Source: an uncultured Bryobacteraceae bacterium (lineage in GTDB: Bacteria > Acidobacteriota > Terriglobia > Bryobacterales > Bryobacteraceae). From it: DNA of 64,000 bases. The notes below the pieces were generated by a model. It saw only the letters and a list, made by a program, of their open reading frames with translations. It had not been told where the DNA came from and ran no database searches. Position numbers and translations under genes: made by a program. The stretch lies in the NCBI GenBank assembly GCA_937920635.1, contig CAKZUE010000021.1, forward strand, positions 21,652 through 85,651, read 5' to 3'. Positions 11,967 through 30,276 of the stretch are shown here, in pieces. The number at the start of each line of letters is the position of its first letter. The first letter of the stretch is position 1.

Positions 11967-13994
11967 TCAAGACTGTTGCCGCAGCAGGTGCGCCCGCAGC
12001 GCCGCCAGCAGCGCTGGCAGCGCGGATTCCAGATAGAAATGGCCGCCCGGGAATTCGGCGCGTTCAAAGTGGGCGGTGGTCTGCTCGCGCCAGGCATCGA
12101 GGTGCGCCGAAGTGACATTCGGATCCGCGTCGCCGCCGTAGGCGAAGATGGGCACATCGAGCGGCGGCTCCGGTACATAGGCGTAGTGGCGGTACAGGCG
12201 CGCGTCGGCCAGCAGCGCCGGCAGCGCCAGCTTGAGCAGTTCGGGCTGGTTCAGCACGCTTGGCGGGAATCCCTCCAGGCGCCGCAATTCTTCGATGAAG
12301 TCGCGCAGGGACGGTTCGGGCGGCGGAACATGGTTCAGGCGGAACTGCGGAGCGCGCGCGCCGGAGACGTGCAGCGAGCGCGGAAGCGGCAGCCCGGCCC
12401 GGCGCAGCGCGCGCGTCAGTTCGAAAGCGATGCCCGCGCCCATGGAGTGTCCGAAGAAGGCGTACGGCGCGTTGAGGAACGGCCGGATCTGTTCGAGCAG
12501 CGCCTCGACCAGCGGCTGCATCCGCTCGAACGGGGGCTCCGATGCGCGCGATTCTCGCCCCGGCAGCCGCACCGGAACCACGAACGCCGCCTGCGCCAGC
12601 GGTTCGCTCCAGGCGCGGTAAGGAAGCGCGCCGCCGCCCGCCCAGGGAAAACAAAACAGCCGGAGCCTGTTTTCTGGCGCCGAGTGGATGGTGGTGAACC
12701 ACGGGTGCGTGAGCGCAGGCTTGCCGGAGGCTTTTCGCGCAAGGCGCAGCGCGAGCAGCCGCCGCTTCTCCTCGCTGAGCAGAGGGCGAGGCGAGCCCGC
12801 CGTCGCCGCCTTTCTGGGCTTTTTCAGCAGGTCGAGCAGCGCATGTTCGAACGGCTCCACGGAGATCGACGCCGCATAGTCGAGAGCGGCGCGGCGGCTG
12901 GCGGCGGCGATCTCCTCCCAGTGGGCGCGGTCCGAGCTCAGCCGCTCCAGAATTCTTTGCCATGGCGCCACATCCTGCGGCGGCACCTCGGCCACCGGCA
13001 CCATCGAAGCGTCCAGCGACGGCTGATAGCGCACGATCGGATTCACCCGCACCAGATACGGCACGCCCAGCTTGGCCTCGTGCAGCCCCCCGACGTCGGA
13101 CGCCACCACCGGCACGCCGCGGCTCATCGCTTCCAGCACGATGCGCGAGCGCGCCTCCGCCCACACCGATGGAACCAGCATCACTCGCGTGCGGCGCAGC
13201 AGGTCGTCGATGTTGTCCACCCGCGGCAGCAACGTGATGTTCGGCACGCTTCGCAGCAGTTCCAGTTCCGCAGGGGTCGTGCCCCACGTCGGAATGGCGG
13301 CGAACTGCAATTGCGGCATCCGCCTGGCCAGTTCGAGGAAGATCGTGATGCCCTTCACCGCGCAGGGATTCACCATCGAAACGAACTCGTTGTCGAAACG
13401 CCCCAGCAACGGGAACTCGGACCCCGGCTCCAGCAACGAGATGGGCACGTGAATCGCATCCAGCCCGCTCCACTCGCGCACATAGCCCGCCACGTAGTGG
13501 CTGACGCCGATGATCAGATCCGCCTGACGCAGGTTCTCCGTCTTGGCTGCGCTCACCATGGAGCTGTCCGGTCCGAACGGCACGGCGATGGTGGCGCGCA
13601 CCAGATACACCACCCGGGCGCGCGGGTGGCGCACTGCCAGATCAAACAGGATCTGCCCCGGGTCGTCCGTGGAGGTGACGATAATGTCCGGGTCGAAGAA
13701 ATCGACGCAGGACTGGAAGAACTGGCGCAGGTGCGGGCTTCGGGTCAGCACGCGCACCTGCACGCCATTCAGGTCATATGCGAGGCTGTCAGCGTCCTCG
13801 CTTGTCCGGATCGAACGCGCGGCGAGTTCCTGCTTCAGTTCCGCATGCGAATTTTCGGAGAATTCGGGAACTCGCGTGACCACCAGCACGCTGTGCCCGC
13901 GCGCCGCCAATGCTTCCATCAACAGCCGGTTGCTTTTGTCGCCGCCGCCCAGGGCAGGGAAGTAGGTCGAGTTGTGGGCCAGCAGGACCTTCAT
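11967..13994 (-). CDS. Glycosyltransferase family 4 fused to a type II-like thioesterase
   Basis: A 675-residue fusion. Residues 1-395 are a GT-B, GT4-type glycosyltransferase: 'GGGDKSNRLLMEAL' near 16, 'NPCAVKGITIFLELA' at 209-223 and 'VPSVWAEARSRIVLEAMSRG' near 274-293 with the donor-binding Glu region. Residues 405-420 ('LLSEEKRRLLALRLAR') look like the helical linker between NRPS/PKS domains. Residues about 440-675 are an alpha/beta-hydrolase thioesterase of the GrsT/RifR kind: 'FCFPWAGGGALPYRAW', nucleophile 'FGHSMGAG' (Ser517), 'YGGDADPNV' with the Asp, and 'FPGGHFYL' with the His. The start overlaps the stop of the next upstream gene as ATGA. Type II thioesterases release acyl groups from carrier proteins, so this enzyme probably acts with the carrier domain encoded two genes upstream. 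Confidence 0.85.
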   Translation of the reverse strand: MKVLLAHNSTYFPALGGGDKSNRLLMEALAARGHSVLVVTRVPEFSENSHAELKQELAARSIRTSEDADSLAYDLNGVQVRVLTRSPHLRQFFQSCVDFFDPDIIVTSTDDPGQILFDLAVRHPRARVVYLVRATIAVPFGPDSSMVSAAKTENLRQADLIIGVSHYVAGYVREWSGLDAIHVPISLLEPGSEFPLLGRFDNEFVSMVNPCAVKGITIFLELARRMPQLQFAAIPTWGTTPAELELLRSVPNITLLPRVDNIDDLLRRTRVMLVPSVWAEARSRIVLEAMSRGVPVVASDVGGLHEAKLGVPYLVRVNPIVRYQPSLDASMVPVAEVPPQDVAPWQRILERLSSDRAHWEEIAAASRRAALDYAASISVEPFEHALLDLLKKPRKAATAGSPRPLLSEEKRRLLALRLARKASGKPALTHPWFTTIHSAPENRLRLFCFPWAGGGALPYRAWSEPLAQAAFVVPVRLPGRESRASEPPFERMQPLVEALLEQIRPFLNAPYAFFGHSMGAGIAFELTRALRRAGLPLPRSLHVSGARAPQFRLNHVPPPEPSLRDFIEELRRLEGFPPSVLNQPELLKLALPALLADARLYRHYAYVPEPPLDVPIFAYGGDADPNVTSAHLDAWREQTTAHFERAEFPGGHFYLESALPALLAALRAHLLRQQS

Positions 13995-15202
13995 TGCGGG
14001 CGCCGCCTTTTCCGGAGCTCGCGCAGCAGCAGCGCCCGGCGCGCCTCGTCCAGCGGCTTCTTCTCGATGGCGGGCTGCGCGGGGGCGATGGGTTCGGCCG
14101 GCGCCGGCAGGGATTCCAGCAGTTTGCCAAAGGCATCCGGATCGATGGAAGAGACGAATGCCCGCGCAGCCTGCCGCGACCGCGCACTCTCCGCCCAATA
14201 CTCGTCCTCATCCTCCAGCAGGCGCCGCAGCGCCGAAACCCAGGGTTCGATGTCCTGCGGCGGCAGCATGGGGCGCGGCATATGCGCGGCGTCGAACTCC
14301 ATCCGGTAGCCCTGCACGGGACGCACGGGGATGACGTAGCGGGTGCCGCGCTTGGCTTCGCACAGGCCGCCCGAGTCGGAGGAGATGACAGGAATCGCGC
14401 GCAGCATCGCCTCCATGACGATCAGCCCGAACCCTTCGTACCAGAGCGAGGGCATCAACAGCACCGAGCAGCGCCGCAGCGCGTCTTCGATGTCGGCCAC
14501 GTTCTCGAGCAGCGAGACGTTGGGCAGCGCTGCCATCGCCGCCTCGTCCTCGGGCGTGGTGCCCCATCCCCGCAGGGCTTCGAACCGGACCTCCGGCAAA
14601 AGACGCGCCAGTTCAAGAAATATGGAAATTCCTTTGGCCGCGCAAGGGTTGATCATCAACACAGATTTGCGGGAGAAATCGGCCAGATCCGGCCAGGGCG
14701 GTTGGCCGTAAATCGGCGGATGGATCACTGCCGCTTCCCGCCCCAGGTGGGTCTGCACGTAAGCGGCCATGTGGCGTCCGATCACGACAACCGCCGCCGC
14801 CCCGCGCACGAGGTCTGCCGCGGGCGGGTCCGGATGCCAGGACTCGGGACCGAAAGGCAGGAATTGCGGCGTGTGCGCGAGGTACACGAGCCGCCCGGGC
14901 GCCGTGCGAGCGGCTTCGCGCAGCAGCGTGTGAGAGAGGTCCTCGCTCGATACCAGCACCCAATTGGGCTGCGTCTCCCGGATCAGCCTGCCCAGTTCTC
15001 CAGCGTGGAGCGAAAGCGACGGGACGGCGTGGATCCGGATGCCGCCGGACGACGACACGCGCGGCTGCACGTCCGGCGACGATGCGGCGACGGTGCAGTG
15101 GTGTCCCGTTGCCGCCAGCCGCCGGAGCCATGCCAGGTTGGAGCGCGTGGATCCGCCCCGCGGGGGATCGTAGGAGGCGTTGGAAGCCAGCAGCAGCCGC
15201 AC
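13991..15202 (-). CDS. Glycosyltransferase family 4
   Basis: A 403-residue GT-B glycosyltransferase and clear paralogue of the neighbouring fusion's N-terminal half: both open with a 'MxxLLAxN' strand, both have 'NPCAxKGIxIFLELA' and 'GWGTTPE'-like blocks, and both end in an 'LPPQDxxPW' region. The donor-site pattern 'MPSLWYEGFGLIVMEAML' has the usual E-x7-E layout. The last about 23 residues ('PLDEARRALLLRELRKRR') resemble the same NRPS-type linker helix seen before the thioesterase in the neighbour, here as a free tail. The start is 2 bases from the FkbH-ACP stop and the end overlaps the next gene by 4 bases, so translation is coupled. Sugar donor and acceptor are unknown. Confidence 0.87.
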   Translation of the reverse strand: MRLLLASNASYDPPRGGSTRSNLAWLRRLAATGHHCTVAASSPDVQPRVSSSGGIRIHAVPSLSLHAGELGRLIRETQPNWVLVSSEDLSHTLLREAARTAPGRLVYLAHTPQFLPFGPESWHPDPPAADLVRGAAAVVVIGRHMAAYVQTHLGREAAVIHPPIYGQPPWPDLADFSRKSVLMINPCAAKGISIFLELARLLPEVRFEALRGWGTTPEDEAAMAALPNVSLLENVADIEDALRRCSVLLMPSLWYEGFGLIVMEAMLRAIPVISSDSGGLCEAKRGTRYVIPVRPVQGYRMEFDAAHMPRPMLPPQDIEPWVSALRRLLEDEDEYWAESARSRQAARAFVSSIDPDAFGKLLESLPAPAEPIAPAQPAIEKKPLDEARRALLLRELRKRRRPQ

Positions 15203-15204
15203 CG

Positions 15205-17331
15205 CTACTCCTCCTGTTGCATCTCGCGTTCGAGCAGTGCGCGCACTTCCTCGTCGGAAAGATTGGCGATCTCCGCCAGCAGCGCTTCGTATTCTTCCGG
15301 GTCGGCAGCGCCGAGCCGGCGGGCGTCGATCAGTGCCGCCAGCGAGCCGAGTGTCAGCGAGCCGGAGTAGACGTCATCGACGGCCAGCTCCACGCCGAAT
15401 TCTTCCTTGACGCGCATCAGCAGCAGCACCGCCAGCAGCGAGTGTCCTCCCAGATCGAAGAAATTGGCATCGGAATTCAGAATAGGTTTTTGCAGAATCC
15501 CGGCCCAGATACGTGCCAGTTTTTCTTCGGTTTCAGAGGAAAAGGCCCGCCCGGTGGAAGCGCCCTGCGCCTCCGCCGCCTCGCGCCGCGACGCCGTCAG
15601 GATCTCCGCTGGGGTGCGCAGAGACCGGGCGATCTCGGCATACCCGCTGAAGCTGCGCGCAGCGGCGCGGATGGAAGCCGTTTCCCGCGGCGCGGCGGGC
15701 TGCAAGGAGGCGGGCGACCACCGCAACGTCTGGAGTTCCACCGCCGGGAAGCGGAATACCAGTCCCCCATTGTCCTCGTGCACCTGGCCGAAAGGGATGG
15801 ATTCGAGGAACGCCCGCGCCGGCGCGTTGCGCGCCGTTGGAGTCAACGGCACCGTCACCGTATAGACGCCCTCGTCGAGAGCCAGTTCAGCGAGCCGCGC
15901 CAGGATCCGGTGCTCGACTCCGCGCCCCAGCACGCGGCAGGAGAGCATCAGCGCTTCGACGAACATTTCGTTGAGCCGCGTGAAAACAATCACCAGTCCC
16001 GTGAGTCCGTATTCTCCGAAGCGGTCGCTTACTTCTACGGTGAAGATCCGCACGCCGGGCGTCTGTTCCAGCGCCGCCAGTTCCGCCTCCGTGCGCCGGA
16101 TGGTTGTGGTGTTGAACTGGTTGGTGCGCTGCGTGAGTTGCGCCGCGCGGGGCAGCCGCTCCGGCGCCAGGGGCTGCACGTCCACGCGGAGATTCAGCGA
16201 GGCGATGAATTCTTCCAGCGATGAGGCTGATTGCGCCGCCCGGGAGAATTCGAGCGACTGCGCCATCAGCTCCGACCGCCGCCTGTCTTCTTCCGTCACG
16301 GACGGATGATCGAAAGCCCAGATGTGTGCCAGAAATTCCGGCAGATCCTCCAGATCCGAAGGCAATGCGATGGAGAGCACCTCCGGCGCCGATGAGGACA
16401 CCTCGGCGCACTCCTTGGGGTTGTCGTCGAGGAAGATGAACGACTCCAGCCCCAGATTCAGCTCCGCGCCCAGCGAGGCGAGGTTCACCGGTTTCGGATT
16501 CCAGTCGATGCGCCAGGCGGCGAAATGCTCCAGCCGCAGCGGAAACTCGGGGTGCGCGTTGAAGGTCTCCAGCACGTCGCTGAAGTTGTTCTTGGAAGCG
16601 ATCGCCAGCAGCATCCCCGCTTCGCGCTGCCGCAGCAGGAACTCCTGAAGATGCCGCCGCGGGGGATCGAGCACGACGCCTCCCGGACCGTCTTCCCCGC
16701 AGATGCCCCGCCAGAGCGTATTGTCCAGATCCACCGCCACCACTTTGTAAGGCGGCATCGACAATGTATGCGCCCGGCGGACGACGGCCGTCGCCAGGGC
16801 GGCGAACATCTCCTCCGTGTAGGGAATGCGCGCGATCTCCGCCGCCCGCGCATCATGCATCTGTGTGACCGGATACAAGGCGAGCCATTCTGAGTAGGGC
16901 AGGAAATGGAGCCCGGGTTGCGCGGCCAGCGCGCTGCGGAGCGCCGCTTCCGCCTCCGCCGCCGGCGCATTCTCCTCCTGCGGGCATAACACGAACAGGA
17001 GCGGAACGGTGAGCCGCGGCAAAGCCGAACGGACGGCGTCCGCCAGTTGGCCCGCATTGGCGATGGCTGCTTCCGCTATCAGAGAGCCATCCGTGCGCAT
17101 CTGGGCCAGGTCGGAAGTCCGCAGCAGGATGACGTTCACGCCGCGGCGGTTGGAGGAGAAGACCGAGCCCGGATCCAGCAGCGTCTGGACGATCTGATTG
17201 TACGGGGCGTAAGCCGTCTCAAGGGGCATCTTCAGCCGGCGCGCCCAGAATTGCAGAAAGGGTTCGATGGGTTCCGCCGTGAACGATGCGGCGATCGCGA
17301 TGTGAAAAGGTTCCGAGGAGTGCGAAGTCAC
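15205..17331 (-). CDS. FkbH-like glyceryl-loading enzyme with C-terminal acyl carrier protein
   Basis: A 708-residue protein. Residues 1-190 are the N-terminal FkbH region; 195-360 a HAD-IIIC phosphatase-like domain with 'VVAVDLDNTLWRG' (DxDxT at 201-205) and 'FIFLDDNPKECAEV'; about 380-560 a GNAT-like region containing 'TQRTNQFNTTT'; about 605-690 a phosphopantetheine carrier domain with 'FFDLGGHSLLAVLL' (attachment Ser631). The end, 'NLSDEEVRALLERE', is the usual tail of NRPS/PKS subunits. Studied FkbH enzymes take the glyceryl group of 1,3-bisphosphoglycerate and place it on a carrier protein as glyceryl-thioester, the route to methoxymalonyl units and tetronates. Here the carrier is in cis. 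It is the first gene of a tightly packed operon with two glycosyltransferases; a TACAAT hexamer lies at 17414-17409 upstream. Confidence 0.9.
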   Translation of the reverse strand: MTSHSSEPFHIAIAASFTAEPIEPFLQFWARRLKMPLETAYAPYNQIVQTLLDPGSVFSSNRRGVNVILLRTSDLAQMRTDGSLIAEAAIANAGQLADAVRSALPRLTVPLLFVLCPQEENAPAAEAEAALRSALAAQPGLHFLPYSEWLALYPVTQMHDARAAEIARIPYTEEMFAALATAVVRRAHTLSMPPYKVVAVDLDNTLWRGICGEDGPGGVVLDPPRRHLQEFLLRQREAGMLLAIASKNNFSDVLETFNAHPEFPLRLEHFAAWRIDWNPKPVNLASLGAELNLGLESFIFLDDNPKECAEVSSSAPEVLSIALPSDLEDLPEFLAHIWAFDHPSVTEEDRRRSELMAQSLEFSRAAQSASSLEEFIASLNLRVDVQPLAPERLPRAAQLTQRTNQFNTTTIRRTEAELAALEQTPGVRIFTVEVSDRFGEYGLTGLVIVFTRLNEMFVEALMLSCRVLGRGVEHRILARLAELALDEGVYTVTVPLTPTARNAPARAFLESIPFGQVHEDNGGLVFRFPAVELQTLRWSPASLQPAAPRETASIRAAARSFSGYAEIARSLRTPAEILTASRREAAEAQGASTGRAFSSETEEKLARIWAGILQKPILNSDANFFDLGGHSLLAVLLLMRVKEEFGVELAVDDVYSGSLTLGSLAALIDARRLGAADPEEYEALLAEIANLSDEEVRALLEREMQQEE

Positions 17332-17425: not shown

Positions 17426-18889
17426 CTACTCGAGCGGACGGAACCAGATGTTGCGGAAGCGCATGGTGGTGTCCGGAGCGCCCGGGAATCCCGAGTGGTC
17501 CTGCAACAGCAGCGGTCCCGGCTCGCACATCGCGCGCCGGAAGCGCAGCGGGGCATGGTCCTGAACCAGCACGCCATTCAGCAACACCGTGACCGTGGCG
17601 GGTTCGACCTCCTGCCCGCGCGCATTGCAGACTGGCGCGTGATAGACGATGTCGTAGGAAGACCACTCGCCGGGCTTGCGGGCGGCGTTGACCAGCGGCG
17701 GATGCTGGCCGTACACCGCGCCCAAGGTTCCGGTGGCGTAGGTCGGGTTCTGGTAGCTGTCCAGGATCTGGATTTCCGTGATTTTCTGCAAATAGACGCC
17801 AGAATTCCCCTTTAATTGCCCTTTTTGATCCGGCATTTCCGGCACCAGAAACTCCAGGTGGATCTGCGCGGACCGGAATTGCGCGCGCGAAACGGCGTCG
17901 CCCGCGCCCGTGCGGCAGGCCATTTCCCGGTTCTCGATCCGGCAGCCCGTGGGAGAGCCGTCCGGGCGGGTCCACGCGTCGAGGCTCGATCCGTCGAACA
18001 AGACCACCGCGTCGGAAGGCGGATCGCCGCTGGTTTTTCCCGGCGTCACGGCGCGCGGCTCGGCCTGCGGCGGTTTGCCCCCTTCTGCCAGTTCGGGCGG
18101 CGCCGGCAGGGTGACATCTCCTGTCGCGGCCCACTCCGCGCCCCGCGTGAACGTCGTCACGAACACGGGCGTCTTCACTGCCGGGCCATCATGGCCGAGC
18201 GCGGTGACGAAGACGCGCCCGCTGCCGTAATTCACGGTCCATAGGATCGGGTGGTCCAGCCCGTCTCCCGGCGTCGGCTGCTTCGCCTTGCCCTGATAGA
18301 GCTTGTGATCGTCCCAGGCGGTGGCGAGCACGTGATAGGAATCCGCAGGCTGCCATTTCAGGTTCGCGTAGAGTTCGTCGTCCGGCTGCGTGAGCTTCGC
18401 GCGCAGCCCTCGCGTCACGGGATGGTTGCGGTCGCGGATGTCGAGATGGAAGGTGTGGGCGGGCGAGTGGTGGCCCTGATTCGGGCGCCAATTGCCGGCG
18501 CACAGCTTCTCGAACTCGGGCCAGTCCGGAAACGCGGCGATCGTGAAATGGAAGACCACGAGCCCCTTCCCGGCACGCACGAAATCAAGCAGAGCCCCGC
18601 GCGTGCGCTCCGGCCAGGCGAACGCCGGATCACGGGCGCCGTAATAATTCAGCACCACCAGATCGTAGCCCTCCAGCGTTTCCGGCCCCGCGCCGCGGAA
18701 GTCTTCCGTCACGCGAACTTCGAAACGGCCCGTGTCTTCCAGCGCCTTGCGCAGCAGCGGCGAAACGATGCGCCAGTCGTGGCCGCCGATCACGCCGCCG
18801 GTTACCAGCAGCGCCCGGATCTTCGGCGGCGCGGCCGGGGGCTGCGCCAAGCCGGGCAACAGGAAAAGCAACAGTGCAAGCGCGCGCAT
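17426..18889 (-). CDS. Secreted ThuA-like plus DUF1080 (3-keto-disaccharide hydrolase-like) protein
   Basis: A 487-residue protein. The ATG at 18889 follows a GGAGG site and gives a signal peptide '[15 protein letters not shown]'. Residues about 25-250 are a ThuA-like class I amidotransferase fold: '[14 protein letters not shown]', '[11 protein letters not shown]', '[16 protein letters not shown]', '[22 protein letters not shown]'. Residues about 285-487 are a DUF1080 beta-jelly-roll: '[15 protein letters not shown]', '[17 protein letters not shown]', '[10 protein letters not shown]'. DUF1080 proteins include 3-keto-glycoside hydrolases, and ThuA proteins are linked to trehalose/3-keto sugar use, so a role in extracytoplasmic 3-keto-sugar processing is a reasonable inference. 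The long open frame further upstream lies opposite trpB2 and is not real. Confidence 0.85.
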
Positions 18890-18985
18890 GGTTCGATCTG
18901 CCTCCGCACCCATTCTACGGGCGCGGCGGCGCTCCGTGTTGATACAATCGCCAATTTCAGACTGTTGACGGAGACGCAATCCATC

Positions 18986-20350
18986 ATGAGCGACGAGACC
19001 AAATACGTTCTGGACGAGAGCCGCCTGCCGAAGTTCTGGTACAACATCGCAGCCGACCTGCCTGCTCCCCCTCCTCCCGTCCTGCACCCGGCCACCCAGC
19101 AGCCGGTGACGCCCGCCGACCTGGAAGTGATCTTCCCAATGAGCCTCATCGCGCAGGAGGTCTCCACGGAGCGCGAGGTCGAGATCCCGAAGCCCGTGCG
19201 CGACATCTACCGGCTGTGGCGGCCCACGCCGCTGTACCGTGCGCGGCGGCTGGAGAAGGCCCTGGATACGCCGGCCCGCATCTATTACAAGTATGAGGGC
19301 GTCAGCCCGGCCGGCTCGCACAAGCCGAATACCGCCGTCGCGCAGGCTTTCTACAACAAGGAAGCCGGCGTGCGGCGCATCGTGACTGAAACCGGCGCCG
19401 GCCAGTGGGGCTCGTCGCTGGCGCTGGCGGGTGCGATGCTCGGCCTTCAGATCGAAGTCTTCATGGTCCGCGTCAGCTACCAGCAGAAGCCGTACCGGCG
19501 CGCGCTGATGGAGAGCTATGGCGCGCGCTGCGTGCCCTCTCCCTCCACGGAAACCGCCAGCGGCAGGGCGATCCTGGAACAGCGCCCGGATCACCCCGGC
19601 AGCCTCGGCATCGCCATTTCGGAGGCTGTCGAAGTCGCGGCGCAGAGTGCCGACACCAAGTACGCCCTGGGCAGCGTGCTGAATCATGTGCTGCTGCACC
19701 AGACCGTGATCGGTGAAGAAGCCATCGAACAGCTTGCCATGGCGGGGGACGAGCCCGACGTGGTGGTGGGCTGCACTGGCGGCGGTTCGAACTTCGCCGG
19801 CATCACGTTCCCGTTCCTGGGCCGTATGCTGCGCGGCGGCAGAAAGATGCGCATCGTCGCTATCGAGCCTGCGGCGTGCCCGTCGCTGACGCGCGGCAAA
19901 TACGCCTATGACTTTGGAGACACCGCCCATCTCACGCCGCTGGTCAAGATGCACACCCTTGGCAGCACGTTCACGCCTCCCGGCTTCCACGCCGGCGGGC
20001 TGCGCTACCACGGCATGGCGCCGATGGTCAGCCACTGCAAGCAGCTCGGGCTGCTGGAAGCGAAGGCGTATCCGCAATTGAGCTGTTTCGAAGCCGGCGT
20101 CCTGTTCGCCCGCACCGAAGGCATCATGCCCGCGCCGGAGGCCAACCATGCCGTGCGCGGCGCCATCGACGAGGCGCTGCGGTGCAAGCAGGAGGGCCGT
20201 AGCGAGGCGATTCTGTTCAACCTCTGCGGCCACGGCCACTTCGATATGCAGGCCTACATGGACTACTTCGCCGGCAAGCTCGTCGATCAGCAGTATGACG
20301 AGAGCGAGCTGGCCATGGCTCTGGCCGGCCTGCCTTCCGTCAACGCCTGA
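18986..20350 (+). CDS. trpB: TrpB2-type tryptophan synthase beta-like PLP enzyme
   Basis: A 454-residue enzyme; the length and the N-terminal extension ('[22 protein letters not shown]') are typical of the TrpB2 branch rather than classical TrpB. The PLP lysine is in '[16 protein letters not shown]' (Lys113); '[12 protein letters not shown]' and the phosphate-binding '[11 protein letters not shown]' follow. TrpB joins indole or indole-glycerol products with serine to give tryptophan; TrpB2 proteins often act without TrpA, and none is present here. The start at 18986 has a GGAG site. TACAAT at 18943 is a possible -10 box. It is divergent from the ThuA gene with 96 bases between the starts. No other trp gene is in the window. 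Confidence 0.9.
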
Positions 20351-20451
20351 TTCTCACAACGGTTTCCAGCTTTCGGCCGCAGTGTGCGGGTGTACAATTA
20401 AGAGAACCGGGGCTCCAGATCCGAGTTTCCGAGATAGAAAGAGAGTGTCCG

Positions 20452-22095
20452 ATGATTGTCCACCCGAAGGGCCCCAAGGCCCGCGTTCTGCTCACCAGTG
20501 TTTTCGGACCGTACGCGCAAGACGACGAGTACGGCAGCCGTTCGATCAATCCGATGGAGCTGTACCACAACCAGGTGACGCGGGCGCAGGGTCCGTACTC
20601 GCTGCGGATGTTCCACCGCTCCTGGGGCATCATGTTCATCCAGGCCAATCTTGAGAACCCTTCGACGGTGCTCGACTTCCCCACCAAAGAACGCTTCGAG
20701 CAGGAACTGCGCGACCACGAGTACGACGTTGTCGGCATCAGCTCGATCATCGTGAACGTCGGCAAGGTGCGCGAGATGTGCAAAATCGTGCGCCGCGTGT
20801 CGCCGAAGTCGGTCATTGTCGTGGGCGGCCATGTCGCGGCAATCCCCGGGCTGGAGCACATGATCGACGCCGACCACATCGTCAAAGGCGAAGGCGTGCG
20901 CTGGATGCGAGAGTTTCTCGGGCAGGATCCGCGCCAGAAAGTGGAGCACCCGCTGATTGCATCGGGCTTCGGCCACCGTGTGATGGGGCTCAAGCTGCCC
21001 GGCAATCTCGGCTCGACGGCGGCGACAATCATCCCTTCGGTGGGCTGCCCGATGGGCTGCGACTTCTGCACGACGTCCGCGTTCTTCGGCGGCAAGGGAA
21101 ATTTCATCAACTTTTTCGAGACAGGGCGCGAAATTTACGAGGCGATGGAAAAAGCCGAGCGCGCTTTCAAATACAAGTCTTTCTTCGTCATGGACGAGAA
21201 TTTCCTGCTGCACCGGAAGCGCGCCATGGAGCTGCTGGACTGCATGAAGCAGGGCGGCAAGAGCTGGGATCTGTACGTCTTCTCTTCGGCCAACGCGATC
21301 CGGAAATACAGCATGGAGGAGCTGGTGGAACTCGGCATCTCCTGGGTGTGGATGGGGCTGGAATCGCCTCAAAGCGGCTACGCCAAGCTCGCCGGCTCGG
21401 ACACGCTCAGTCTGGTGCGCGACCTGCGCAGCCACGGCATCCGCGTGCTCGGTTCCACGATCGTGGGCATGCATCACCACACGCCGCAGAACATCGGCGA
21501 AGAAATCGACTACGCGTGCAGCCACGAAACCGACTTCCATCAGTTCATGCTGTACACGCCGCTGCCTGGAACGCCGCTGCATCAGCGGATGAAGCAGGAA
21601 GGCACGCTCATCGACGTGGATCTGGCCGACGTCCACGGGCAGTACAAGTTCAACTGGGTTCACCCGCACATCAGCCGGGACGAGTCCAAGAAATTCCTCG
21701 ACTGGGCCTTCTGGCGTGACTTCGAGCTCAACGGTCCGTCCCTCTACCGCATTTGCCGCACCACGCTGGAGGGTGTGAAGAAATACCGCTTCTACCCTGA
21801 CCTGCGCGTGCGCGAGCGGTTTGACCGGGAAGCCCTGGCGCTGAGGACCTCCTACGCCGCCGTGTTATGGGCGATGGAGCGGCACATGCGCAAGAAGAAC
21901 GCCGAGATCGCCCAGCGCGTGCGCGAGCTGCGGGAAGACATCCGCCGCGAGTGCGGTTCGCTTGCCGCCGCCGTGGGCGCCGCTCTGGGGCCGCTCATGC
22001 TCTGGCTGACGAAGCGCGAAGAGAAGAAACTCGAAAAAGGCGTCGCCTACGAGCCGCAGACGTTCATCGAACGCCGCAATTGGGCCGGAGCGTAG
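20452..22095 (+). CDS. B12-binding-domain radical SAM enzyme
   Basis: A 547-residue protein. Residues about 10-165 fit a cobalamin-binding Rossmann domain ('DVVGISSIIVNVGKV', 'VIVVGGHVA'), although the N-terminal about 80 residues are longer than usual. The radical SAM cluster motif C-x3-C-x2-C is Cys199, Cys203, Cys206 in 'PSVGCPMGCDFCTT'. Later blocks 'VFSSANAIRKYS', 'WVWMGLESPQSGYAKL' and 'FMLYTPLPGTPLHQR' are the usual barrel strands of this class. The last about 70 residues are charged and helical. Such enzymes methylate or rearrange unactivated carbons in lipids and natural products; the substrate cannot be inferred. AGAGAG precedes the ATG and TACAAT at 20393 may be its -10 box. Confidence 0.85.
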   Translation: MIVHPKGPKARVLLTSVFGPYAQDDEYGSRSINPMELYHNQVTRAQGPYSLRMFHRSWGIMFIQANLENPSTVLDFPTKERFEQELRDHEYDVVGISSIIVNVGKVREMCKIVRRVSPKSVIVVGGHVAAIPGLEHMIDADHIVKGEGVRWMREFLGQDPRQKVEHPLIASGFGHRVMGLKLPGNLGSTAATIIPSVGCPMGCDFCTTSAFFGGKGNFINFFETGREIYEAMEKAERAFKYKSFFVMDENFLLHRKRAMELLDCMKQGGKSWDLYVFSSANAIRKYSMEELVELGISWVWMGLESPQSGYAKLAGSDTLSLVRDLRSHGIRVLGSTIVGMHHHTPQNIGEEIDYACSHETDFHQFMLYTPLPGTPLHQRMKQEGTLIDVDLADVHGQYKFNWVHPHISRDESKKFLDWAFWRDFELNGPSLYRICRTTLEGVKKYRFYPDLRVRERFDREALALRTSYAAVLWAMERHMRKKNAEIAQRVRELREDIRRECGSLAAAVGAALGPLMLWLTKREEKKLEKGVAYEPQTFIERRNWAGA

Positions 22096-22107: not shown

Positions 22108-23313
22108 TCACAACGCCGCCAGCCTGCGGTGGAACAACAGCAGCCATGCCGCCGCGCAGGTGAGCAGAATTCCGCACGCGCCCACGACAAGGGAGATGCC
22201 GAAAACCGGCACAAGCGCGCCCACGGCGAGGCTTCCGAGCGGCATCCCGCCGCGGAACGCGATGTTGTAAAGGCTCATCACGCGCCCCCGCATCTCGTCC
22301 GTCGCGATCAGTTGCACCAGCGAGCTGAGCAGCGCGAAGCAGCCGATCAGCGCCATCCCGCCGAAAAACACGAACACAAGGCTCAGCCGGAAATCGCGCG
22401 AAAACGCGAACAGGCTTTCGAAGACGCCTAGCAGGATCAGCCCGATCAGGGCGTCCCGCCCCAGATGCGGTCTGCGCCCGCGCGCCGCCACCAGCAGCGC
22501 GCCCGTGATCGCTCCGGCTGCTTCCGTGGCCAGAAGCATGGTGTAGGTGGCCTCATTGCCTCCGAACACGTCTCGGGCGAACACGGGCAGGAACACGAGG
22601 ATCGGAATCCCGAGGAAGGTGCACACGAAAGCCACCCAGATCAGGGGCAACATCCCCGGGCGGCTGCGGATGAATCCAAGCCCCTGCTTCATCGAATCGA
22701 CGACGGACTCGGCGGCGGCAGCAGGCACATAGCGGACGTGGATCAGCAACAGCGATGTGATCACGGCGGCGTAAGAGAGGCCGTTCAGCCCGAAGCACCA
22801 CGCTGCTCCCAGGTGCGTCAGCGCCAGCCCGCCAACCACTGGACCGATCACGCGCGCCAGGTTGAACTGGATCGAGTTCATCGCGATCGCATTGGGCAGG
22901 TGGTCGCGCGGCACGAGCGATGGAATCAGCGATTGATACGCCGGTGCGCCGAACGCCTGAGCCGTGCCAACGATGAAAGACAGCGTCAGAATGTGCCAGA
23001 CCCGCGCGTAGCCAAAAGCGAACAGGCCGGCCAGCGCGAACGCGCACGCCATCTGCACGAACTGCGACCCGACCAGCAGCCGCCTCCGGTCGACCCGGTC
23101 GGCGGCGACGCCCGCCACCAGCGCCAGCAGAAAGATCGGGATCTCGCCTAGAAAGCTGTCCAGCCCCAGGTAGAAGGCGGAGCCGGACAGTTGGAGAACC
23201 AACCAGCTCTGCGCGAGCTTCTGCATCCAGGTGCCGATGCTCGACACGAACGCCCCCGACCACATCAGCCGGAAGTCGCGGTAGTGAAAAGCGGAAAAGA
23301 GGCGGCGGAGCAA
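22108..23313 (-). CDS. MFS transporter (MFS_3, EntS-like exporter)
   Basis: A 401-residue membrane protein with about 12 hydrophobic helices. 'FHYRDFRLMWSGAFVSSIGTWMQ' at the N terminus (residues 9-31) and the loop 'GVAADRVDRRRLL' after helix 2 are characteristic of the MFS_3 branch, which contains the enterobactin exporter EntS and many drug or metabolite exporters. The proposed start is a TTG at 23313; the next ATG would cut into the conserved N terminus, so TTG is preferred. It follows the VOC gene by 13 bases and converges with the radical SAM gene (12-base gap). Its cargo is unknown. Confidence 0.85.
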   Translation of the reverse strand: MLRRLFSAFHYRDFRLMWSGAFVSSIGTWMQKLAQSWLVLQLSGSAFYLGLDSFLGEIPIFLLALVAGVAADRVDRRRLLVGSQFVQMACAFALAGLFAFGYARVWHILTLSFIVGTAQAFGAPAYQSLIPSLVPRDHLPNAIAMNSIQFNLARVIGPVVGGLALTHLGAAWCFGLNGLSYAAVITSLLLIHVRYVPAAAAESVVDSMKQGLGFIRSRPGMLPLIWVAFVCTFLGIPILVFLPVFARDVFGGNEATYTMLLATEAAGAITGALLVAARGRRPHLGRDALIGLILLGVFESLFAFSRDFRLSLVFVFFGGMALIGCFALLSSLVQLIATDEMRGRVMSLYNIAFRGGMPLGSLAVGALVPVFGISLVVGACGILLTCAAAWLLLFHRRLAAL

Positions 23314-27577: not shown

Positions 27578-28507
27578 ATGGCGGCGTCGGCAGCCATCTC
27601 CGTGCGGGGCCTGCGGAAGTTGTACGGGGACTTCGAGGCCGTGCGCGGCATCGACTTTGAAGTCGCTGCGGGCGAGATCTTCGGACTGCTGGGGCCGAAC
27701 GGGGCAGGCAAGACAACCACGGTCGAGATCCTCGAAGGCTTGCGGCAGCGCAGCGCCGGCGAGGTTTCCGTCCTTGGTTTTGATCCGGAGAAGGAAACCG
27801 CAGCGGTGAAAGACCGGATCGGCGTCGCGCTGCAATCCACCAATCTGCCCGAGAAAATGAAAGTCCACGAGGCCGCGGAGCTGTTCTCCGCGTTCTACAC
27901 CCGCTCGGTGGCCGTGGACGATCTGCTGAAGCAGCTTCAGATCTGGGACAAGCGGAACGCTTTCTACAGCACGCTCTCCGGCGGCCAGAAACAGCGGCTT
28001 GCACTGGCTCTCGCCCTGGTCAACGATCCGGAACTCGTGTTTCTCGACGAGCCGACCACTGGCCTGGATCCGCAGGTGAGGCTCGAGATCCACTCGCTGA
28101 TCAGCCGGCTTAAGGAACAGCGCAAGACCGTGCTTCTGACCACCCATTACATCGAAGAGGCGGAGCGCTTGTGCGACCGCGTGGCCATCATCGACGAGGG
28201 CCGCATCGTCGCCTTGGGCAGCCCGAGGGAATTGCAGGAGCGCGTGCTGGGCCATGCCCGCGTGGAAGTCGCAGCCTCGCAGCCGATGCCGGAGCAGTTG
28301 CCGGATTCGTGGCAGGGGGAGGTGGCGGCGGTGTTCAGCGAGGGGCGCAAGAAGCTGGCGGCGTCGGCTGCAAAACCGGCGCGAGTCATCGTCGAGCTGG
28401 TGAAGTGGCTCGAAAGCGCGGGCGTGGAAATAGAAGATCTTCACATCAAACGCCCGACGCTGGAGGACGTCTTCCTCGAATTGACGGGCAAGAGCCTGAG
28501 GGAGTAG
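27578..28507 (+). CDS. ABC transporter ATP-binding protein (CcmA/NatA type)
   Basis: A 309-residue ATPase. Walker A is 'GPNGAGKTTT' (near 46-55), the signature is 'TLSGGQKQRLALALAL' (near 131), Walker B is 'PELVFLDEPTTGLDPQ' (near 150) and the switch His follows in 'VLLTTHYIEEAERL'. The C-terminal about 90 residues after 'GSPRELQERVLG' form the usual accessory region of ABC-2 exporters. The permease gene begins 2 bases after the stop, so the two form one exporter. Confidence 0.9.
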   Translation: MAASAAISVRGLRKLYGDFEAVRGIDFEVAAGEIFGLLGPNGAGKTTTVEILEGLRQRSAGEVSVLGFDPEKETAAVKDRIGVALQSTNLPEKMKVHEAAELFSAFYTRSVAVDDLLKQLQIWDKRNAFYSTLSGGQKQRLALALALVNDPELVFLDEPTTGLDPQVRLEIHSLISRLKEQRKTVLLTTHYIEEAERLCDRVAIIDEGRIVALGSPRELQERVLGHARVEVAASQPMPEQLPDSWQGEVAAVFSEGRKKLAASAAKPARVIVELVKWLESAGVEIEDLHIKRPTLEDVFLELTGKSLRE

Positions 28508-28509
28508 CC

Positions 28510-30276
28510 GTGCGTCTGCGCGCTTACGCCGCCTATATCAAGATCACGCTGAAGCTGACGCTGCGCGACCGCGTCGTGCTGTTCTTCAATTACCTGATGC
28601 CCCTGCTTTTCTTTGTCGCCTTCGGCGAGGGGCTCGGGGCGGGAACAAGCCCGGGCTCGATGTCGCAGACGGTGAGCATGGTGCTGATGTTCGGCGTTCT
28701 GGGCACGGGCTTCTTCGGCGGCGGCATCCGCGCCACAATGGACCGGGAAGCCGGCATCCTGCGCCGTTTCAAAGTGGCGCCCATTTCGCCGGCACCCCTG
28801 CTGGTGGCCTCTCTGGTCACCGGATGGGCGGTGTTTCTCCCGTCCGTGTTTCTCTTCCTCGCCCTGGCGCGATGGCGTTACGGCTGGGACCAGCCGCTGA
28901 ATCTGGCCTCGCTGCTGCTGGTCGTCAGCGTGGGAGTGATGGCGTTCCGCAGCATGGGGCTCATCATCGCCTCGGTCGTCAACAGCATGCAGGAGAGCCA
29001 GATCATTGCGCAGTTGCTCTACATGCCCATGCTGCTGCTGTCCGGCGCCACGATCCCGTTGCCGATTCTGCCGGAGTGGCTCCAGAAGCTGGCGCAGTTT
29101 CTGCCGGCTACCCACCTCTACCTGGGGACGCAGGGCATCCTGGTGCGGGGAGAAACGGCTTGGGACAACCGGACGGCTGTGATGGCCATGGCCGTTGCTG
29201 TGGCCGCAGGGTTGCTCGTGAGCATCAAGCTGTTCCGATGGGAGAAGGACGAGAAGGTCAAACCGGCGGCCAAGCTCTGGCTGATCGGGGTGCTGGCGCC
29301 GTTCGTGCTGTTGGGCGCCTGGCAGTATTACGACAGACAGAACGACCGGAAGCTGCGCATCCTGGAGCGGCAATCGCGCCGTTCGCAGACGTGGCTCATC
29401 CGCGACGTGCGAATCTTCACCGGGGACGGCGCGGTCATCGAGCGCGGCGGCGTGCTTGTCCGCAACAGCCGCATCGAACGCGTCTATGACGGCGCCACGC
29501 CGGAGCCGAAAGCGGTGCGGGCTGAGCTCGTCGAGGCAGGCGGAAGAACGCTGCTGCCGGCGCTGATCGACTCCGGGATCGTGCTAATCAGCCAGGATGG
29601 AAAAGGCCCGGCGTCCGGCGTGGAGGGCTTCTTCCGCGGATATCTCTACTGCGGCGTGGGAGCCCTGCACGTGATGCGGGATCCGCTCGGCGTGGCGGAA
29701 GACCTTCGCAAGAGGGTGGATGAGGGTGAGTTGCTGGGGCCGGAACTCCTGCCCGGCGGTCCCGTGGAAGCGTTCAGCCTGACGGCTGCGCAGGCAGCTG
29801 CGGGGGATCCGGCGGTTCTGCGGCACGACCTGGCCCAGCAGTTTTTCCCCGCAGCGTACCTTCAGGGCCTGGCTGTGTCTGCCGGGGCGCGGCCGCGCTC
29901 GCCGCAGGCGCTTCCGGCTGCCACTGCGAGGCTGCAGGAAATGTGGAGGAGCGGCCGGTTGCCTGTTCCCAGCGGCGCGGCCGCGGGCCTGCTCCAGCTG
30001 CACGGCCCCGGCCTCGTCCATGAGCTGGCCCTTTGGGTGGAGGCCGGCATCCCGGCACGGGAGGCGCTGCGGGCCGCGACGGCCCTGGCCGCCGCACGCG
30101 CCGGCGCGGACAGCCGGCTCGGCAGGGTGCGCCAGGGGATGGACGCGACGCTGCTGGTGGTCGACGGCAACCCCCTCGAAGACATCCGCGCCCTCAGCCG
30201 CATTCACAGCGTTTTCGTGCGCGGGGAGCGCATCGCCCGTGGCGAGCTGGCCAAAGAGAACAAAAACGCCCATTAA
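28510..30276 (+). CDS. ABC-2 permease fused to a degenerate amidohydrolase-like domain
   Basis: A 588-residue protein starting at GTG 28510, with GGGAG just upstream, 2 bases after the ATPase stop. Residues 1-240 are an ABC-2 permease with six hydrophobic helices and the usual 'FGVLGTGFFGGGIRATMDRE' and 'QLLYMPMLLLSGATIPLP' blocks. A seventh helix (257-272) follows, which should put the rest outside the cytoplasm. Residues about 295-588 read as an amidohydrolase: an N-terminal beta segment 'WLIRDVRIFTGDGAVIERGG', 'RTLLPALIDSG' where the metal site H-x-H should follow but is absent, and a C-terminal 'HELALWVEAGIPAREALRAATALAA' with 'GMDATLLVVDGNPLEDI'. The metal ligands are gone and the middle is short, so it is probably a binding rather than catalytic domain. 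Confidence 0.82.
   Translation: MRLRAYAAYIKITLKLTLRDRVVLFFNYLMPLLFFVAFGEGLGAGTSPGSMSQTVSMVLMFGVLGTGFFGGGIRATMDREAGILRRFKVAPISPAPLLVASLVTGWAVFLPSVFLFLALARWRYGWDQPLNLASLLLVVSVGVMAFRSMGLIIASVVNSMQESQIIAQLLYMPMLLLSGATIPLPILPEWLQKLAQFLPATHLYLGTQGILVRGETAWDNRTAVMAMAVAVAAGLLVSIKLFRWEKDEKVKPAAKLWLIGVLAPFVLLGAWQYYDRQNDRKLRILERQSRRSQTWLIRDVRIFTGDGAVIERGGVLVRNSRIERVYDGATPEPKAVRAELVEAGGRTLLPALIDSGIVLISQDGKGPASGVEGFFRGYLYCGVGALHVMRDPLGVAEDLRKRVDEGELLGPELLPGGPVEAFSLTAAQAAAGDPAVLRHDLAQQFFPAAYLQGLAVSAGARPRSPQALPAATARLQEMWRSGRLPVPSGAAAGLLQLHGPGLVHELALWVEAGIPAREALRAATALAAARAGADSRLGRVRQGMDATLLVVDGNPLEDIRALSRIHSVFVRGERIARGELAKENKNAH

Follow-up and report, generated by a model that had tools for sequence, protein, structure and literature searches.

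FkbH-family enzymes load a glyceryl unit from 1,3-bisphosphoglycerate onto a carrier protein, and we predict this activity for the FkbH protein described below from such family knowledge and from papers on its relatives. In the loading modules for vioprolide and corramycin, a fatty acyl-AMP ligase (FAAL), an acyl carrier protein (ACP) and a condensation (C) domain precede FkbH and a peptidyl carrier protein (PCP), giving the order FAAL-ACP-C-FkbH-PCP. The FkbH-loaded glycerate of vioprolide is esterified with a fatty acid (both points from excerpts of PMC10099666 and PMC8949500). For suomilide, O-methylation and sulfonation of FkbH-loaded glycerate, on the carrier, have been proposed (excerpts of PMC13122637). 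In the papers cited here, glycerate loaded on a carrier by FkbH is a building block for polyketides or nonribosomal peptides. Here, we describe a three-gene unit, or trio, in which FkbH and its carrier are followed by no enzymes other than glycosyltransferases and a thioesterase. The trio is found in a 64,000-nucleotide stretch of DNA, hereafter the window, from an uncultured Bryobacteraceae bacterium (GenBank assembly GCA_937920635.1, contig CAKZUE010000021.1, positions 21,652 to 85,651).

The three genes, all on the minus strand, occupy window positions 11967-17331. The first, at 15205-17331, has a GTG start and encodes FkbH-PCP (708 aa). Next, at 13991-15202 and also with a GTG start, is the gene for a GT4-type glycosyltransferase, GT1 (403 aa). 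The last, at 11967-13994 with an ATG start, encodes GT2-TE (675 aa), in which a second GT4 enzyme (GT2) is joined by a linker to a type II-like thioesterase (TE). Two bases separate the FkbH stop from the GT1 start, and an ATGA is shared by the GT1 stop and the GT2-TE start. A promoter scan found none. Pfam scans of the three proteins list no condensation, adenylation, ketosynthase, acyltransferase or methyltransferase family. We think there is about an even chance that the trio is a self-contained carrier-protein assembly line, where glyceryl is loaded, two sugars are added on the carrier, and the thioesterase releases the product. The observations behind this reading are the gene content, gene order and conservation, invariant catalytic residues, a genome with no condensation domains, and the FkbH tree.

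The FkbH domain (residues 195-514; 15790-16749, minus strand) matches TIGR01686 with 297.3 bits, against a cut-off of 146.65 (E 1.2e-88). It contains the HAD motifs DxDxT, SK and DD, and a conserved Cys465 within SCRVLGRG. The carrier domain (residues 603-668; 15328-15525, minus strand) is a PP-binding match (PF00550, 55 bits, 9.7e-15) with the attachment serine, Ser631, in GGHSL. Its sequence matches in the PDB are mainly NRPS (nonribosomal peptide synthetase) carriers. Ten FkbH and carrier residues were tested: the HAD motif residues, the SK and DD pairs, Cys465, a further lysine and the carrier serine. All are invariant in 35/35 alignment rows. The predicted fold of FkbH-PCP (mean pLDDT 84.0) comprises a BF1531-like N-terminal part, a HAD phosphatase/glyceryl transferase part, a GNAT-like part, the carrier and a helical tail. 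The best structure match of this model, and nearest solved relative, is BF1531 (PDB 3slr); GNAT acetyltransferases also match. A single phosphopantetheinyl transferase was found in the window genome. This is of the ACPS family, and is called AcpS by TIGR00516 (97.2 bits, against 59.8).

GT1 and GT2 both match GT4 families (GT1 by PF13692/PF00534) and are paralogous, with 135/392 aligned columns identical (34%). The E-x7-E motif of GT1 is EGFGLIVME, and residues E256, E264, K190 and H110 are invariant (35/35 rows). The active-site motif of GT2 is altered to EARSRIVLE; EARSR is found in 32/34 rows, both glutamates in 34/34, and arginine occupies the position of GT1 His110. Since EARSR..E replaces EGFGL..E, and arginine replaces His110, the donor of GT2 probably differs from that of GT1. 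An acidic sugar would suit the arginines, but this is a guess. The predicted model of a relative, P0019, which is 61% identical to GT2-TE, has the GT-B fold of a GT4 enzyme with E-x7-E. In a structure search with this model, BshA was first among the glycosyltransferase matches, narrowly, and the BshA entries include a malate complex. Several variants of these enzymes occur in relatives (L and G numbers are our labels for loci and genomes). P0116 is a GT1-GT2-TE fusion with an additional Hpt domain (PF01627). TE-less GT2 paralogues are found at L069:4121-6254 and L103:553-2602, each then followed by a similar-looking protein of ~285 aa. Related GT4 domains are also found at the N-terminus of NRPS proteins, at L067:9670-18561 (plus strand; GT-C-A-PCP-C-A-PCP-TE) and L099:304-5781 (plus strand; GT-C-A-PCP-TE), where GT is glycosyltransferase and A is adenylation.

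The thioesterase domain (11970-12707, minus strand) has the catalytic serine in GHSMG and histidine in GGHF. It matches PF00975 (3.3e-43, residues 445-668 of GT2-TE). The closest thioesterase sequences are RifR (3fla, 8.1e-45), RedJ and TesA, with ClbQ also near. By structure search, the fold of a relative's thioesterase is nearest to RedJ, BorB and RifR. RifR, RedJ, BorB, ClbQ and TesA are type II thioesterases, several being so named in their entry titles. The serine and histidine are present in 33/34 rows, the remaining row being a gap, and the aspartate in 30/34 (otherwise two Glu, one Gly and one gap). Separately, a locus from another family of the same class (L088:9054-11987, minus strand) encodes a 977 aa FkbH-PCP-TE protein, and no GT1 or GT2 match is present in its 15.4-kb contig. 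Together, the coordinates and domains agree with a first-pass annotation of this DNA, which had proposed an FkbH enzyme with its own carrier, a GT4 enzyme, and a paralogous GT4 with a type II-like thioesterase attached. The carrier-bearing FkbH is borne out by the TIGR01686 and PF00550 matches and by the intact motif residues, the paralogy by the 34% identity, and the thioesterase type by the nearness to RifR and RedJ and by the Ser-Asp-His residues. The same annotation placed no polyketide synthase (PKS) or NRPS domain in the 5.4-kb operon, as the Pfam scan also finds.

We next describe the distribution of the trio. Among 399 genomes of the class, 44 have a GT2-TE match at E<=1e-60, and all 44 are in the window's own family. 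FkbH matches at E<=1e-40 occur in 115 of the 399. Note that, in both class-wide searches, the two best first-look candidates were scored per genome. A close FkbH (E<=1e-140) is also held by 43/44 of the GT2-TE genomes; G641 departs from this, and its locus (L076) likewise has none. FkbH at the same threshold, without GT2-TE, was found in G650, G297 and G597. The FkbHs concerned are part of an NRPS protein (L087), part of the FkbH-PCP-TE protein (L088), and next to an NRPS protein (L094). A family search gave GT2 or GT2-TE matches at E<=1e-100 in 100/237 genomes, from 43/76 genera, some being glycosyltransferase-only or cut by a contig end. In a phylum-wide sample of 297 genomes, four matched at E<=1e-60: the window's own genome, one with a glycosyltransferase fused to an NRPS (G051), one with a solitary glycosyltransferase (G183) and one with a solitary thioesterase (G238). 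Protein searches at E<=0.001, with ~8000 candidates scored each and single-domain matches included, returned 1908 matches for GT2-TE and 4047 for FkbH.

Gene order was compared in 50 fetched relative loci, from three sets (all 20, 10/16, and all 20). FkbH, GT1 and GT2 are together on one strand in 40. Hence, the trio is not a chance arrangement. Because many loci were picked for a high GT2-TE score, 40/50 should not be read as the rate for a random sample. The glycosyltransferase-only loci L099, L102 and L103 were kept and counted as misses. Loci with only a glycosyltransferase or thioesterase (L067, L068, L069, L071, L072 and L077) were left out, as were nine loci fetched for FkbH outside the unit, L096 (a further stretch of the G631 contig) and short search-returned loci. 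The GT2 match continues into the thioesterase in 38/40 trio loci. At L105, the thioesterase is in another frame, and at L111 a 1.4-kb gap separates GT1 and GT2; contig ends truncate L070, L097 and L109. GT1 and GT2-TE form one open frame in 12/40 (L050, L051, L053, L055, L057, L058, L061, L080, L082, L097, L098 and L101), a count that leaves out L073 owing to a contig end. Hence, both glycosyltransferases are tied to one process. The trio is also present in 6/6 of loci L002-L007, which partly duplicate the 50; for instance, zero-length branches separate L006 and L098 in the FkbH tree. Co-occurrence of the three domain sets among genomes, a check suggested in the first-pass annotation, is thus evident both from the 40/50 loci and from FkbH in 43/44 GT2-TE genomes. 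Note that the record for L002 (DYJN01000034.1) is titled Arcobacter, while its genes match those of the window in order and at 72-94% identity; the organism name appears to be mistaken.

A whole-genome search identified no Pfam condensation domain in the window genome, and the same search was positive in 4/14 control genomes. The genome has four PP-binding domains. Besides that of the trio, these comprise a pair within short open frames (88-89 aa) and a fourth in a protein that also has AMP-binding and acyltransferase domains. Given these few carriers and the lack of condensation domains, the stand-alone reading holds, and we rejected the possibility that the first-pass annotation overlooked a PKS or NRPS cluster. 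The AMP-binding/carrier/acyltransferase protein is an 850-aa open frame on contig C25 (L066). Condensation domains are absent from 14/22 trio genomes and present in eight; in G433 and G445, the sole one found is in the trio operon itself. Hence, in most of these genomes, the trio is independent of NRPS enzymes encoded elsewhere. One trio genome, G459, has a very large NRPS region on contig C1 (~3.466-3.551 Mb), which holds most of its 40 condensation matches. A FAAL or condensation sequence was found in 4/40 trio loci, counting the fetched flanks; three are FAAL-ACP-C loaders before FkbH and one (L070) is a condensation domain at a contig end. By the genome's lack of condensation domains, no NRPS or PKS extension module accompanies the window FkbH; ketosynthases were not searched for genome-wide or in relatives' flanks. 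The first-pass annotation had held that homologues lying always beside intact PKS or NRPS modules would undo a stand-alone role. Such an association is not seen in the fetched flanks.

The ancestry of the trio probably involves NRPS systems. At L059, L081 and L106, the FkbH protein starts with FAAL-ACP-C, so has the complete order FAAL-ACP-C-FkbH-PCP, and is followed by GT1 and GT2-TE. L070 starts inside the condensation domain at a contig end, with any preceding domains beyond the contig. The window protein has no such FAAL-ACP-C segment ahead of FkbH-PCP. In an FkbH tree of 54 rows, which omits L091, L093 and L095 (long or distant rows), L059, L081, L106 and L070 group together (98/89). The four sit between five NRPS/PKS-associated FkbHs plus L088 (100/99) and 44 stand-alone rows (100/99). 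FkbH outside the unit is found within NRPS/PKS proteins at L087, L089, L090 and L093 (the latter a ketosynthase-rich PKS), and beside one at L091, L092 and L094. These relationships suggest a probable common origin of the trio and an NRPS loading module. A single loss of the acyl-loading part would be the simplest account, with a single gain as the alternative. The FkbH phylogeny, advised in the first-pass annotation, thus places the trio FkbH beside NRPS-associated FkbHs. The separation from polyketide and tetronate clusters drawn there stands as regards a stand-alone role. Conversely, the distance from NRPS systems is not deep, given the vioprolide-type loader relatives, NRPS-associated FkbHs and NRPS-fused glycosyltransferases.

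Our proposed sequence of events is as follows. AcpS, the sole phosphopantetheinyl transferase found, would prime Ser631. FkbH would then take 1,3-bisphosphoglycerate, strip the phosphate, and form glyceryl-S-carrier (a D-glycerate unit). While the unit is carrier-bound, GT1 would glycosylate a glyceryl hydroxyl and GT2, with its altered donor-site motif, would attach a different sugar. Finally, the thioesterase would hydrolyse off a diglycosyl-glycerate. In the FAAL-ACP-C relatives, glycerate would first be esterified with a fatty acid, leading to a glycolipid-like product. A neighbouring MFS carrier may export the product in some relatives. Stated chemically, and a little short of an even chance in our estimation, this would be a thiotemplate line extended by glycosyl transfers on the phosphopantetheine arm, from which the thioesterase frees a glyceric acid glycoside or, in FAAL-C relatives, an O-acyl-glyceric acid glycoside. 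If so, there would be a carrier-protein route to glycosides, unlike the nucleotide-sugar routes to glucosylglycerate and lipid-linked glycan synthesis. Carrier-protein chemistry would reach sugar chains, and many members of one bacterial family would make an undescribed glycoside or acyl-glycoside. With three proteins, the system is small enough for in vitro rebuilding. The parts are known; the trio stands out by their combination with two GT4 enzymes and a thioesterase, by doing without condensation domains in this genome, and by its wide conservation in the family. Addition of sugars on the carrier, if true, would be close to categorically new. These features are not described in the titles and abstract starts of the open-licence literature searched. 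Likewise, open-licence PubMed Central returned nothing for FkbH together with O-antigen or glyceric acid, with glyceryl and glycosyltransferase, or with glycolipid, and nothing on the trio, by title or abstract start, for glycosyltransferase domains in NRPS proteins.

Several elements may allow the proteins to interact. The helical tail at the C-terminus of FkbH-PCP, starting at residue 680 (EYEALLAEIANLSDEEVRALLERE; 15208-15294, minus strand), is a proposed docking element. Its consensus, in a 40-protein alignment, is EYxALLAEIEGLSDEEVRALL, and the predicted model shows two helices. Between GT2 and the thioesterase is the element LSEEKRRLLALRL; its pattern occurs at that junction in 87/120 homologous proteins and nowhere else in them. 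The linker itself, residues 405-421 (LLSEEKRRLLALRLARK; 12732-12782, minus strand), matches this pattern. There is no match in 120 FkbH proteins or in 17 other window genes having a Pfam match. Note that these counts are not independent, since the proteins searched are kin to each other. The pattern also lies ahead of a condensation domain in 3/11 NRPS proteins (L067, L087 and L094), and a single stray match falls within the FkbH of L090. The C-terminal linker of GT1, residues 386-403 (EARRALLLRELRKRRRPQ; 13994-14047, minus strand), resembles the strict NRPS-type pattern and fails it. Taken together, the linkers, the NRPS-fused glycosyltransferases and the conserved FkbH tail suggest docking of the glycosyltransferases with carriers.

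Some observations weigh against an assembly line with sugars added on the carrier. Type II thioesterases of known pathways mostly edit carriers and do not release products. With respect to docking, GT1 of the window has no match to the linker pattern, which is found in just 11/35 GT1 rows (many fused or shortened); the separate GT1 of L004, and fused GT1 rows, have no linker element, and 8/11 NRPS proteins have no such pattern before the condensation domain. The resemblance to BshA is weak, with 16-18% identity, E-values near those of other GT4 enzymes, and a thiol_BshA label far below cut-off. The GT4 fold is also compatible with soluble or lipid-linked acceptors, and the model of the fused GT-GT-TE protein has a pTM of 0.53, so domain packing is unreliable. 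Furthermore, 10/50 loci are without the full trio. L076 (G641) has GT1-GT2-TE without FkbH, L112 and L113 have only GT2-TE, and L102 and L103 only GT2; L104 lacks both GT1 and a thioesterase but has FkbH and GT2, and the glycosyltransferase of L099 is on an NRPS. The incomplete loci L073 and L074, which come from a single genome divided between contigs, and L110 are at contig edges. Lastly, FkbH-domain genes also occur in glycan loci, as for cj1302 in the Campylobacter flagellar-glycan region (excerpts of PMC7099621).

The latter example favours the model of the first-pass annotation, namely that the glycosyltransferases build a glycan or glycolipid on an acceptor of their own, and that the thioesterase moves glyceryl from the carrier to a sugar hydroxyl, giving a glyceryl-ester-decorated glycan. 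Fusion of the thioesterase to GT2 physically joins glyceryl and sugar chemistry. Moreover, glycans and lipids are common acceptors for GT4 enzymes. However, none of the window genes scanned (655-35023) was assigned to a flippase, polymerase or initiating sugar transferase family, and an ABC-2 transporter sits ~10 kb off, at 27578-30276. Neighbours beyond the trio are not widely conserved, with an MFS exporter in some loci. The glycerate of FAAL-C relatives would be fatty-acylated on the carrier, and the thioesterase is closest to type II enzymes. We consider glyceryl transfer to a sugar made by the glycosyltransferases unlikely, and favour carrier-bound glycosylation with thioesterase release; of the two, transfer is less likely. 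That closeness to RifR, RedJ, BorB, ClbQ and TesA, in sequence and fold, would also suit an editing thioesterase that clears mis-primed carriers, with some enzyme from outside the trio transferring the glycosylated glyceryl thioester to an acceptor. This we regard as improbable. Continuation of GT2 into the thioesterase at nearly all trio loci is unusual for an editing enzyme, the thioesterase is the sole release domain of the unit, and L088 fuses a thioesterase straight to FkbH-PCP. Furthermore, no condensation-family enzyme was found in the window genome.

Decay offers another explanation, whereby the trio is what remains of an NRPS that lost its FAAL and condensation domains and has no present function. 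Loss is plausible, since the FAAL/C-bearing members adjoin the stand-alone clade in the tree, and the one phosphopantetheinyl transferase of the window genome is of AcpS type. Yet the ten tested FkbH and carrier residues are kept in every row, GT2 or GT2-TE matches extend to over half of the family's genera, and gene order is kept in four fifths of the loci; we judge a functionless remnant very unlikely. An anti-phage conflict system built on a GT4-conflict glycosyltransferase is barely credible. While PF20706 (GT4-conflict) matches both glycosyltransferases above cut-off, the ordinary GT4 family PF13692 outscores it on both, none of the trio proteins matches a PADLOC family, and carrier and thioesterase domains do not fit such a system.

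The genes around the trio vary. Upstream, at window positions 17426-22095, are ThuA/3-keto-disaccharide hydrolase, TrpB-like and B12-binding radical SAM genes, in the same order in the close relatives L002, L007 and L042. We rejected these as partners, as they are common to the genus and in part found outside it, and are variable further out. An MFS_1/MFS_3 exporter gene lies within 300 bases of the trio in 10/40 trio loci. Genes of this type are beside the trio at L003:12006-13298, L044-L049, L052, L053, L055 and L098; several abut or overlap the GT2-TE end. This hints at secretion of the product in those loci. In the window, the gene adjacent to the trio is DUF2339, and another MFS gene is at 22108-23313.

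How, then, does the trio compare with described systems? Like the vioprolide and corramycin loaders, it pairs a PCP with an FkbH of the NRPS-associated kind, and L059, L081 and L106 have the complete loader order. Unlike them, the window has no FAAL, ACP or condensation domain and no peptide-extending module; two GT4 enzymes and a thioesterase are found instead. For suomilide, banyaside and dysinosin (excerpts of PMC13122637 and PMC8609519), FkbH also places glycerate onto a PCP, where its tailoring has been proposed. There, however, methyl and sulfo transfer are followed by NRPS extension, whereas for the trio we propose two glycosyltransferases and direct release. The cystomanamide NRPS (C-fkbH-PCP; excerpts of PMC9581180 and PMC8949500) similarly obtains glyceric acid via FkbH-PCP, and the compounds are termed glycosylated lipopeptides. 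In contrast to the trio, this is a full five-module NRPS, with fructose on analogues C and D and glyceric acid on B. The tetronate glycerate-utilisation operon and methoxymalonyl-ACP genes (excerpts of PMC7489565) share an FkbH-like enzyme, a carrier and a glyceryl-ACP intermediate. Tetronate operons have a FabH-like chain-release enzyme, an acyltransferase and a dehydratase beside FkbH and ACP; this set is not seen by Pfam in the trio and flanking genes scanned. Furthermore, FabH-like, dehydratase and methyltransferase families are absent from these genes, and the trio carrier is fused rather than separate. A methoxymalonyl or tetronate set was rejected on these grounds. BF1531-type FkbH (PDB 3slr) resembles the window protein in its N-terminal part and HAD fold, but the window protein has a PP-binding domain, unlike the carrier-less glycan type. 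For many FkbH matches in the class, which lie in frames of ~580-690 aa, the match ends around query residue 510-530; these are probably of this shorter, carrier-less type. An FkbH for O-antigen or capsule was rejected, given the carrier and the lack of a glycan operon among the window genes scanned. The type II thioesterases RifR, RedJ and BorB have the same sequence type and fold, and the same serine, histidine and, usually, aspartate, as the trio thioesterase, which differs in being fused to a glycosyltransferase and in belonging to a genome without a condensation domain. Finally, BshA, a GT4 enzyme acting on malate, differs in having no carrier protein and in its low sequence identity (~16-18%). 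Nevertheless, with its GT4 fold and hydroxy-acid acceptor, it is the closest chemical parallel to the glycosyltransferases of the trio.

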